Assembly (NCBI RefSeq): GCF_029210375.1
Contig: NZ_JARGER010000043.1
Coordinates: 124,001 to 188,000 of the forward strand
Source: Nocardioides sp. YIM 152315
GTDB taxonomy: Bacteria; Actinomycetota; Actinomycetes; Propionibacteriales; Nocardioidaceae
Direction of reading: 5' to 3'
Length of the DNA stretch: 64,000 nt
Shown: positions 23,896 through 27,003 of the stretch, piece after piece
How the letters are laid out: every line of letters starts with the position of its first letter
Numbering within the stretch: the stretch's first letter is position 1
Program-made: the position numbers and the translations under genes
Notes under the pieces: generated by a model
Database searches by the model: none
What the model was told of the DNA's origin: nothing
The model's input: the letters and a program-made list of their open reading frames with translations, nothing else

Positions 23896-24312
23896 ATGGG
23901 TCAGCTGGTCGGAGAACAGGTGCAGGAGCGATCGCGATCGTGGCGGGAGGACCTGCCGGTGGCCGCGGTCGCGGCCGTGGCATCCGGGCTCGGGTGGGCG
24001 GTGGCCCGCCTGGCCGGGTCGGACCTCGCGGTGCAACCCGGGTCGGAGACCCAGCACGTGGGCGTGGTCTCGGTCCTCGTCACCGCGGTCGTCGTGACGA
24101 TGGTCGCGGGGTTCCTGCTCCGGGCGCTGGAGCGGCGTACGCCGCGCGGGCGGCTCATCTGGACCTGGGTGGCGGTCGGGGTGCTGCTGGTCTCGCTGCT
24201 GATGGGCCCGCCGGCAGCGACGTCGCTCGCCGACGGGCTCGTGCTCGCCGGGCTGCACGTCCTGGTCGGGGCGATCGTCGTCATCGGTGCGCTGCGCCGC
24301 CAGGCGTCGTAG
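23896..24312 (+). CDS. DUF6069-type four-helix membrane protein
   Basis: The 138-residue protein has four predicted transmembrane segments (about 20-40, 55-75, 85-105 and 112-132) and a conserved LRALERRTPRGRLIWTWVAV loop typical of DUF6069 proteins. The ATG at 23896 has an ideal GAAGGAGG ribosome-binding site. The sensor kinase gene begins 1 nt after its stop, so it is the first gene of a three-gene unit. It may be regulated by, or feed signal into, the two-component system. No function is known for the family. Confidence 0.75.
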   Translation: MGQLVGEQVQERSRSWREDLPVAAVAAVASGLGWAVARLAGSDLAVQPGSETQHVGVVSVLVTAVVVTMVAGFLLRALERRTPRGRLIWTWVAVGVLLVSLLMGPPAATSLADGLVLAGLHVLVGAIVVIGALRRQAS

Positions 24313-24313
24313 C

Positions 24314-25426
24314 GTGAACGCCGTGTGGAGGCGCATGCGGTGCAACTGGCGGCGCAACGCGTCCGTGCTCGTCTGGGCGATCCTGCTGCTGCTCGGACCG
24401 ATCCTCGACGTCCACGGCACCCCCGGCGAGGTCGCCGTCCAGGTCGTGTTGATCCTCGCCATCGCTGCTTCGGCCGTCGTCGCGGGTGCGACCGGAGGAC
24501 CACCCTGGCGCTCCGCCGTGCCGTACGTCGCGCTGGCGACGCTCGCGGCGGCGACGATCGGCGGCGCCGCTCTGGGCAACAGCCAGTGGCTGTCGACCTG
24601 GGTCCTGCTGGCCAACGCGCTCGCTGCCGTGCTGCCGCGTCGCGCGCTCGTGGTCGGCGTGCCGGTGACCGTGCTGGCCTCGATGTGGGCGGCATGGCGC
24701 ATCGAGCCGCACGAGTGGGACCGGGTCTGGGCCGAGGGCCTCGTGGTGCTCCTGGCCGGCGTGGCCAGCGCGGCGTTCGCGGCGCTGATCGACACCGTGG
24801 CCGAGCTCCGGCGTACGCGCCGGGAGCTGGCGCGGGCGGCCGTGTCCGAGGAGCGTGAGCGGTTCTCGCGCGACCTGCACGACCTGCTCGGCCACACCCT
24901 CTCGGTCATGGTGGTCAAGGCCGAGGCGGTCCGGCGGCTCGCCGATCGCGACCCGCAGGCAGCCGCGGCGCACGCCGCCGACATCGAGCAGATCGGTCGA
25001 CGCGCCCTGGTCGAGGTCCGTCAGGCCGTCGACGCCATGCGCGCCCCGACGCTCGACGAGGAGCTCGACGGTGCGGTCACGGCGCTCAGCTCTGCCGGGA
25101 TCTCCGTCACCCTCGACCGCGACAGCGTCGTCGCCGCCGACCGGGCCGCCGACGTGCTCGCCTGGGTGGTGCGTGAGGGCGCGACCAACGTGCTGAGGCA
25201 CTCGGGGGCGTCGACCTGCCGGATCGAGATGGCCGAGCGGGACGACGGGGTCGCGCTCGTGATCAGCGACGACGGCGTCGGGGCGCCGAGCACTCCGGGC
25301 GACCGCCCGGGTGGCCTCGCCGGACTGCGTGATCGCGTCACGGCCGCCGGTGGCGAGCTGCGGTGCGGATCCGTCGAGGACGGTGGCTTCCGGCTGACCG
25401 CCACGATCCCCGGAGGCCGCCGATGA
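24314..25426 (+). CDS. NarL-type sensor histidine kinase (HisKA_3)
   Basis: This is a sensor kinase of about 370 residues with an N-terminal block of 5-6 membrane helices (about 15-150), a coiled-coil ending in RRELARAAVSEERERFSRDLHDLLGHTLSV, where the His of DLHD is the phospho-acceptor, and a HATPase domain with REGATNVLRHS (N box) and DDGVGAPSTPGDRPGGLAGLRDR (G boxes). It belongs to the DesK/NarX class. The GTG at 24314 follows the DUF6069 stop by 1 nt. The response regulator ATG overlaps its stop. Confidence 0.9.
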   Translation: MNAVWRRMRCNWRRNASVLVWAILLLLGPILDVHGTPGEVAVQVVLILAIAASAVVAGATGGPPWRSAVPYVALATLAAATIGGAALGNSQWLSTWVLLANALAAVLPRRALVVGVPVTVLASMWAAWRIEPHEWDRVWAEGLVVLLAGVASAAFAALIDTVAELRRTRRELARAAVSEERERFSRDLHDLLGHTLSVMVVKAEAVRRLADRDPQAAAAHAADIEQIGRRALVEVRQAVDAMRAPTLDEELDGAVTALSSAGISVTLDRDSVVAADRAADVLAWVVREGATNVLRHSGASTCRIEMAERDDGVALVISDDGVGAPSTPGDRPGGLAGLRDRVTAAGGELRCGSVEDGGFRLTATIPGGRR

Positions 25427-26037
25427 CGCGGACGATCCGGGTCCTGCTCGCCGAGGACCAGACCATGATGCGCGGCGCCCTCGCCGTCCTGCTCGAGCTC
25501 GAGGACGACATCGAGGTCGTCGCCCAGGTCGCCGACGGGAGCGCCATCGTGCCGACAGCACTGGCGACGGATCCCGACGTGGCACTGCTCGACATCGAGC
25601 TGCCCCACCTGTCCGGGCTCGACGCCGCCGTCCAGCTGCGCGACGAGCTGCCGACCTGCCGAGTGGTCATCGTGACGACCTTCGGGCGACCGGGCTACCT
25701 GCAGCGGGCCATGTCGGCCGGCGCCGCAGGCTTCCTCGTCAAGGACGGGCCGATCGAAGGGCTGGCCGACGCCATCCGCCGCACCGTGGCGGGTGAGACC
25801 GTCGTTGACCCGGAGCTCGCCGGCCGGGCACTCAGGATGGCGCCCAGCCCGCTCACGGCGCGCGAGCGCGACGTGCTCGCGGCCGCCGAGCAGGGCTCGT
25901 CGGTCGCGGACATCGCCACCCTCCTCCACCTGTCGGCGGCGACGGTCCGCAACTACCTGTCCGACGCGATCGGCAAGACCGGCACGCGCAACAAGACCGA
26001 GGCGGCCCTGCTGGCCCGCAGGAACGGCTGGCTCTGA
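25423..26037 (+). CDS. NarL/FixJ-family response regulator
   Basis: The 204-residue regulator has a receiver domain with acidic pair ED, phospho-acceptor Asp in VALLDIELPHLSG (about 53), Thr in VIVTTFG and Lys in FLVKDG, followed by a LuxR-type DNA-binding domain PLTARERDVLAAAEQGSSVADIATLLHLSAATVRNYLS. The ATG at 25423 overlaps the kinase stop (ATGA). Target genes are unknown; the preceding DUF6069 gene and its own operon are candidates. Confidence 0.93.
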   Translation: MTRTIRVLLAEDQTMMRGALAVLLELEDDIEVVAQVADGSAIVPTALATDPDVALLDIELPHLSGLDAAVQLRDELPTCRVVIVTTFGRPGYLQRAMSAGAAGFLVKDGPIEGLADAIRRTVAGETVVDPELAGRALRMAPSPLTARERDVLAAAEQGSSVADIATLLHLSAATVRNYLSDAIGKTGTRNKTEAALLARRNGWL

Positions 26038-26063
26038 CCGGATCGCTCGTGACGATGCGATGA

Positions 26064-26113
26064 CTTCGGCCTGTCTCGCCGGTCCACAGGGAGTACCCGT
26101 TCTCAGGCCGAAG
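26064..26113 (+). promoter_or_regulatory. Hairpin that can mask the leader-peptide ribosome-binding site
   Basis: CTTCGGCCTG (26064-26073) and CAGGCCGAAG (26104-26113) are perfect 10-nt complements with a 30-nt loop. The 3' arm shares its last three bases with the AAGGAG ribosome-binding site (26111-26116) of the 15-codon ORF at 26123. If the stem forms in mRNA, initiation at that ORF would be hindered. It could also act as an attenuator for read-through from the response regulator gene, as there is no U tract after it. Confidence 0.5.
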
Positions 26114-26122
26114 GAGCGCACC

Positions 26123-26170
26123 ATGGTGCAGGTCAGCAGCAACACGTCGAACGCAGGCGCCCGACATTGA
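26123..26170 (+). CDS. 15-residue leader peptide ORF
   Basis: MVQVSSNTSNAGARH starts at ATG 26123 behind a near-consensus GAAGGAG ribosome-binding site, 6 nt away. Its TGA overlaps the TTG start of the SCO6745-like gene (TTGA at 26167-26170). It has no resemblance to known leader peptides that I recognise, and no run of a single regulatory amino acid. The strong ribosome-binding site, overlap and upstream hairpin suggest that it couples translation to the next gene. Confidence 0.5.
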   Translation: MVQVSSNTSNAGARH

Positions 26171-27003
26171 GCGCCGGGAATCCATTGGCGCGCAGGATGT
26201 TCGAGCTCGTCGAGCCGATCGGGGTGATCCCCTACTCGGCCGACGAGCCCAACGAAGCGATGTTCGCACTCGGCTTCACCGACTACTGGGACACCTACTT
26301 CGCCGGCCGGGCCGCCCCGCTGGGCCGCTCGGTGCCCGCGGACGTCGTCCACGCGCTCTTCTACAACTTCGCCCCAGGTGAGGTCGCCCGCCACATTCCG
26401 AAGGTCTGGGGCACGACCACCCCGGACGCGGCGCTCGCCGCCCGGCAGGAGGGCTGCGCCAACGCGCTGCGCCGGATCCTGGGTGACCTCGTCGACTCGC
26501 CCGACTTCGCGCGGGCCGTCGAGCTGCTCAGCAGGGCAGCGACCAGCGCCCCGCTCGAAGGGCGTCCCATGTACGCCGCGCTGCGTACGCTCCCCCTGCC
26601 GGAGGAGCCGGTGGCCCGCCTCTTCCACGCCGCCTCGCTGCTGCGTGAGCACCGCGGCGACGGCCACATCTCCGCCCTCATGACCGAGGGCATCGGCGGC
26701 CTCGAGGCGCACGTTCTGGTGGCCCTCGACCTGGGGATCCCCGCCCCGACGTTCGGCCGGATCCACCACCTCCCGTCCACGCTGCTGACCGACCTGGTCG
26801 ACGGGATGAAGGCGCGGGGACTCGTCGAGGACGAGGCGACGTTCACCCCGGCCGGCCGCCGGACCAAGGACCGTGTCGAGGCGCTGACCGACCGCCTCGC
26901 CCTCGCGCCGTACGAGATCCTCGATCCGCGCGAGGTCGACGAGCTCATCGCCGCCCTCGAACCGCTCGCACGCAGACTCACCGCCGCCCAGGACCCGAGC
27001 TGA
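26167..27003 (+). CDS. SCO6745-family helix-turn-helix-like protein
   Basis: The 278-residue protein matches the actinobacterial SCO6745 family: LARRMFELVEPIGVIPYSADEPNEA, GFTDYWDTYFAGRAAPLG, VVHALFYNFAPGEV and a C-terminal winged-helix-like half (HHLPSTLLTDLVDGMKARGLVED). Function is unknown; a MarR-like regulatory role has been suggested from fold. A TTG start at 26167 is proposed because it keeps the whole family N-terminus and overlaps the leader-peptide stop; ATG at 26197 (MFELVEP) would remove conserved residues and lacks a ribosome-binding site. Confidence 0.75.
   Translation: MSAGNPLARRMFELVEPIGVIPYSADEPNEAMFALGFTDYWDTYFAGRAAPLGRSVPADVVHALFYNFAPGEVARHIPKVWGTTTPDAALAARQEGCANALRRILGDLVDSPDFARAVELLSRAATSAPLEGRPMYAALRTLPLPEEPVARLFHAASLLREHRGDGHISALMTEGIGGLEAHVLVALDLGIPAPTFGRIHHLPSTLLTDLVDGMKARGLVEDEATFTPAGRRTKDRVEALTDRLALAPYEILDPREVDELIAALEPLARRLTAAQDPS

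Follow-up and report, generated by a model that had tools for sequence, protein, structure and literature searches.

A SigG-type promoter and a short coupled leader, rather than an RNA switch, probably precede an SCO6745-family gene in Nocardioides

How is the gene at positions 26167-27003 (+ strand) of the window controlled? The window is a 64,000-nucleotide stretch of Nocardioides sp. YIM 152315 (contig NZ_JARGER010000043.1), whose genome comprises 4.82 Mb in 50 contigs. The gene starts with TTG; a second in-frame TTG, at 26185, could be its start instead. Profile searches assign its product to the SCO6745 family, as an earlier note on this DNA had proposed for the gene downstream of a short ORF: the product scores 302.1 bits against NF047719 (cut-off 120) and 277.9 bits against PF21863 (HTH_67; cut-off 27). 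Our literature search found no paper that uses the name SCO6745 for this family. The earlier note took the sequence just upstream for a translational control device, in which a hairpin masks the ribosome-binding site of a leader peptide. Our analysis indicates that the region is probably not an RNA switch but a SigG-type promoter with a short coupled leader behind it and that, as part of the same explanation, spacer DNA of the promoter pairs with the Shine-Dalgarno region in the 10-bp stem by chance.

The window contains the core CGATGA-N18-GTC at positions 26058-26084. The promoter motif reported for M. tuberculosis SigG, in the portion of the paper cited here, is CGATGA(N18)GTCNNTA, derived from the promoters of Rv0887c and Rv0911 (PMC3776920), and the window shares its core. 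The putative -35 element, CGATGA (26058-26063, + strand), fits this motif and is invariant in an alignment of five sequences, namely the window and the orthologous loci L003, L004, L034, and L036. The putative -10 element, GTCCACA (26082-26088, + strand), places GTC 18 nt after CGATGA and has one mismatch to the published GTCNNTA, the tail being CACA (26085-26088) instead of NNTA. L003, L034, and L004 match the published motif exactly, including NNTA, and L036 has GTT for GTC. Because the published SigG motif derives from two promoters only, we treat the CACA tail as a tolerated deviation and not as an exclusion. A motif scan of the window alone gives 2 matches versus 1.2 expected, which is not significant. 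The evidence that points to a promoter is positional, across orthologues.

The orthologue set comprises 106 distinct sequences, the window's gene included, after 32 duplicates were dropped and 2 sequences were skipped for short upstream sequence. Nocardioides and Marmoricola are among the named relatives at the near loci. Within -150 to +9 of the gene start, CGATGA-N18-GT[CT] is present in 27/106, compared with 0.002 expected per region as computed from the remainder of the same loci, a count that overstates the evidence since related species are non-independent. The core occupies a conserved position, -112 to -56. Its occurrence follows identity: 6/10 orthologues at 76% or above, 16/24 at 70-76%, 5/24 at 66-70%, and 0/48 below, so that it is absent in 79 of the 106. 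The gene of the closest relative (L003 1501-2316, genome G144) has one in-frame TAG inside the match; the gene may be disrupted, or the draft genome may contain a sequencing error.

A candidate for the cognate sigma factor is encoded elsewhere in the same genome, which has a single match to TIGR02960 (SigX5) over the cut-off (370.3 versus 264.75 bits). Sigma regions 2 and 4 are present in the protein, and its C-terminal part gives a SnoaL-like match that lies under the Pfam cut-off (24.3 versus 27 bits). The cited parts of two reports sort ECF factors that carry SnoaL-like extensions into ECF41, ECF56, and others (PMC8999054, PMC7730460). An exact CGATGA-N18-GTCNNTA starts 68 nt before the ATG of the SigX5-type gene (L144 1441-2472, contig C31), so that motif and gene together span L144 1373-2472. 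We surveyed 50 SigX5 loci, made up of L144, 29 others, and 20 hand-picked among the listed matches, from 40 genomes chosen for having the gene. The core motif precedes 21/21 of the genes at least 60% identical to L144 and 1/29 of those below 60% (0/9 at 48-60% and 1/20, L231, below 48%), where 0.01 is expected per upstream region. The motif thus splits one SigX5 clade from its distant relatives and offers a signature for mapping the regulon elsewhere. In genomes G079 and G386, the sigma gene and the SCO6745-family gene are each preceded by exact copies. The SigX5-type gene and its close relatives all carry a SigG-type motif before themselves, a pattern that suggests autoregulation. From the motif and the family model TIGR02960, we infer that the factor is SigG-type. 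The mere presence of SigX5 fails as a predictor of promoter type and gives no separation, 38/40 of the chosen genomes being positive.

Genome-wide counts of the exact full motif, compared with a reversed-pattern control, are 6 versus 1 in the window's genome, 4 versus 0 in G079, 8 versus 0 in G386, 2 versus 0 in G144, and 0 versus 0 in G215. At three of the six exact sites in the window's genome (L167, L174, and L181), no downstream frame of at least 60 amino acids with an SD-like start is listed, and therefore not every site there need be a promoter. A looser pattern finds 11 sites in this genome versus 2 in the control; three of them (L132, L136, and L141) precede frames of the 3-demethylubiquinone-methyltransferase/glyoxalase type or DUF1905 frames. 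The motif targets thus include glyoxalase-type genes, in agreement with M. tuberculosis SigG, for which the cited results give glyoxalase-like genes as top targets (PMC3776920). There are also differences. The window's motif has the CACA tail and precedes an SCO6745-family gene, and the sigma gene of the window's genome carries the motif before itself, whereas overexpression of M. tuberculosis SigG is described, in the same part of that paper, as having no effect at SigG's own promoter (PMC3776920). The window's CGATGA-N18-GTC also differs from the motif given in the cited part of the report on Streptomyces tsukubaensis SigG1 of group ECF56, CCG ... 17 bp ... CCCTCC (PMC7730460).

Frankia is an exception. 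In Frankia (the kin of G800, G590, G580, G708, and G677), the core motif is present before the SCO6745-family gene but precedes the SigX5 gene at 0/15 loci examined, 11 of which were added specifically. A link between motif and sigma gene is therefore shown for Nocardioidaceae only, and because of this result we hold both the preferred explanation and the broader regulon reading given below less firmly. In one Frankia-like genome (G636, locus L158), the motif precedes an SCO6745-family gene, yet the genome has no SigX5 match at E <= 1e-60; there the motif may be recognised by a different sigma factor.

The -10 element also bears on the proposed hairpin. Given the spacing that usually separates an ECF -10 element from its start site, transcription is expected to begin at about 26090-26096 (+ strand), and therefore the 5' arm of the stem would lie outside the transcript. 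The earlier note had named a start downstream of 26073 as telling against the hairpin, and the predicted start lies there. The perfect 10-bp stem ending in AAGGAG, as first described, is present: the 5' arm, CTTCGGCCTG (26064-26073, + strand), pairs across a 30-nt loop with the 3' arm, CAGGCCGAAG (26104-26113, + strand), which runs into the Shine-Dalgarno AAGGAG (26111-26116, + strand). However, the 5' arm forms the first part of the spacer of the ECF-type promoter and is probably untranscribed from it, and the 3' arm belongs to a CGAAGGAGC-type SD region common to relatives, with GGAGC invariant in the five-sequence alignment.

Translational control by a hairpin that hides the SD of a leader peptide coupled to the gene is very improbable. 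The perfect stem does end within the SD and does form in the predicted fold of 26040-26200, and its register outscores slid ones (68% of cells paired versus at most 52%), although the register was taken from one of the aligned sequences and is hence favoured. Against masking, the stem is perfect in only one of the five aligned sequences: of the 10 pairs, the window keeps 10, L003 keeps 8, L004 and L034 keep 5 each, and L036 keeps 6. Compensatory change among relatives, which the earlier note had suggested looking for, does not emerge. Two-sided changes amount to 2 cells, a number reached by 125/500 shuffles, the paired percentage is reached by 50/500, and the covariation score is reached by 33/500. 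For covariation as a whole, between 33 and 145 of the 500 shuffles do as well, depending on the measure. The predicted fold is no more stable than shuffles, either for 26040-26200 (z = 0.38) or for 26092-26200 (z = 0.89). Perfect stems of 10 bp or more (maximal stems, loop 3-40 nt) number 13 in the window, whereas 30 dinucleotide shuffles average 7.3 (sd 2.9, max 12); such stems are somewhat enriched window-wide, and the one described here is one of 13 and not clearly special. An Rfam search of the window finds no known RNA element at the gathering score. Since the 5' arm is promoter spacer, the hairpin is possible only in readthrough RNA from upstream, where it may matter if most transcription of the gene comes from the two-component operon at 24287-26037 (+ strand), a histidine kinase and a LuxR/NarL-type response regulator ending at 26037. 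We consider this reading improbable, though less so than translational control by masking. The operon is on the same strand, 20 nt separate the response regulator stop from the promoter motif, and a simple scan of 25800-26300 finds no intrinsic terminator. The same scan finds no sigma-70-type promoter. Against the operon reading, no homologue of the kinase or the regulator (E <= 1e-15) turns up in the other six loci of the closest clade, in the upstream 3 kb for five of them and 1.5 kb for L004, whereas the motif accompanies the gene in 4/6 (L003, L034, L004, and L036). A distant regulator (33%) is found upstream in one Frankia locus, L041. The kinase and regulator genes overlap as ATGA (25423-25426), a standard coupled two-component operon.

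Downstream of the SD, the 15-codon ORF MVQVSSNTSNAGARH (26123-26170, + strand) runs from ATG 26123 to TGA 26168-26170. Its stop overlaps the TTG start of the gene as TTGA (26167-26170), just as the earlier note described. The closest clade, fully supported (100/100), has seven members, three of which share the layout: in the window, in L036, and in L004, where it starts with GTG, the leader has exactly 15 codons and the TTGA junction, so that in each the leader stop overlaps the gene start, as in termination-reinitiation. Where most close orthologues have their starting ATG, the window and L004 read GGG and L036 reads GTG. L003 and L034, by contrast, go straight from the same SD-ATG into the gene, which makes the leader dispensable, and L033 and L035 have neither promoter nor leader. 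Conservation of the short ORF among relatives thus holds for its length, start position, and junction in L004 and L036 and not for its peptide or its presence across the clade. The leader interior is 54-63% identical, versus 66-73% at third codon positions of the gene, and the peptides share 3 to 6 of 16 positions (stop included) in pairwise comparison. A function at the peptide level is not supported, the interior being less conserved than the gene's third codon positions. The length of the open frame is unremarkable: in 50% of shuffles, all three sequences stay open. Frameshifting from the leader into the gene was rejected: at the TGA the frame of the gene is -1, and no slippery sequence is seen by reading.

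These features leave room for the leader being a neutral remnant between an old and a new start, with the gene starting alone at TTG 26185 or 26167. The unconserved peptide and the direct use of the SD-ATG in L003 and L034 would fit such a remnant, as would a GGGA a few bases before TTG 26185 in the window. It is nonetheless unlikely, although it is the least unlikely of the readings set against ours: an identical 44-nt spacing, 15 codons, and TTGA are kept in three diverged sequences, and L004 (CTG) and L036 (CTC) have no start that matches TTG 26185. Of the coupling that the earlier note proposed, the TTGA junction stands, shared by L004 and L036 and accompanied by the absence of the usual ATG in the window and L004, while the leader itself is dispensable. 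The constant spacing and junction give moderate evidence for translational coupling. The leader looks real and ordinary, and looks like one that hands ribosomes on to the gene.

In the preferred reading, a SigG-type promoter with a coupled leader, a SigG-type sigma factor would guide RNA polymerase to the CGATGA-N18-GTC core at 26058-26084. The factor, whose identity we infer, would be an ECF protein of the TIGR02960/SigX5 type that ends in a SnoaL-like part. Transcription would begin at about 26090-26096. Ribosomes would load at AAGGAG, translate the 15-codon ORF, and terminate at TGA 26168-26170. They would then restart on the overlapping TTG at 26167 and produce the SCO6745-family protein. 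SigG-type promoters and termination-reinitiation coupling are both known kinds. In the cited part of a survey, leader genes of Actinobacteria are proposed to raise translation by reinitiation, and the window's leader resembles them in being short and close to the gene (PMC4833913). It differs in that its stop and the gene start overlap as TTGA, whereas the survey leaders, as described there, are non-overlapping with a peak at 10-11 bp (PMC4833913).

The placing of SCO6745-family genes under a SigG-type promoter seems to be new, and our literature search found no earlier report of it; among the papers cited here, PMC3776920 is the only one with the CGATGA-N18-GTC motif. A tempting and probably wrong RNA-switch reading thus gives way to a testable regulon assignment, in which the SCO6745 family would be placed under a SigG-type sigma factor, at least in Nocardioidaceae. 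Tentatively, and at somewhat less than even chances, SCO6745-family genes may be regular ECF targets in Actinomycetota, with a SigG-type branch and a TGTCGnAT ... TTCGT branch, to which a small Nocardioidaceae clade adds a reinitiation leader. If true, this would tie the unstudied family to a glyoxalase-type stress regulon.

The other branch is a second motif of fixed geometry, TGTCG[AGT]AT...TTCGT[AG]G, found upstream of the SCO6745-family gene in L016, L062, L068, L096, L117, and others. It is present in 52/103 orthologues in one count, which also gave 23 SigG-type motifs, one of them (L073) with the wrong spacing, and in 53/79 orthologues without the SigG-type core in another. The motif looks like another ECF promoter, possibly of ECF42. 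In the window's genome, a TGTCG[AGT]AT-type site (L214) precedes a frame that starts MPRYMMSV and is YCII/DGPF-like by eye. In Segeticoccus rhizosphaerae (L033), a glyoxalase-like frame, identified by reading its translation, abuts the SCO6745-family gene (from 3001), replacing promoter and leader.
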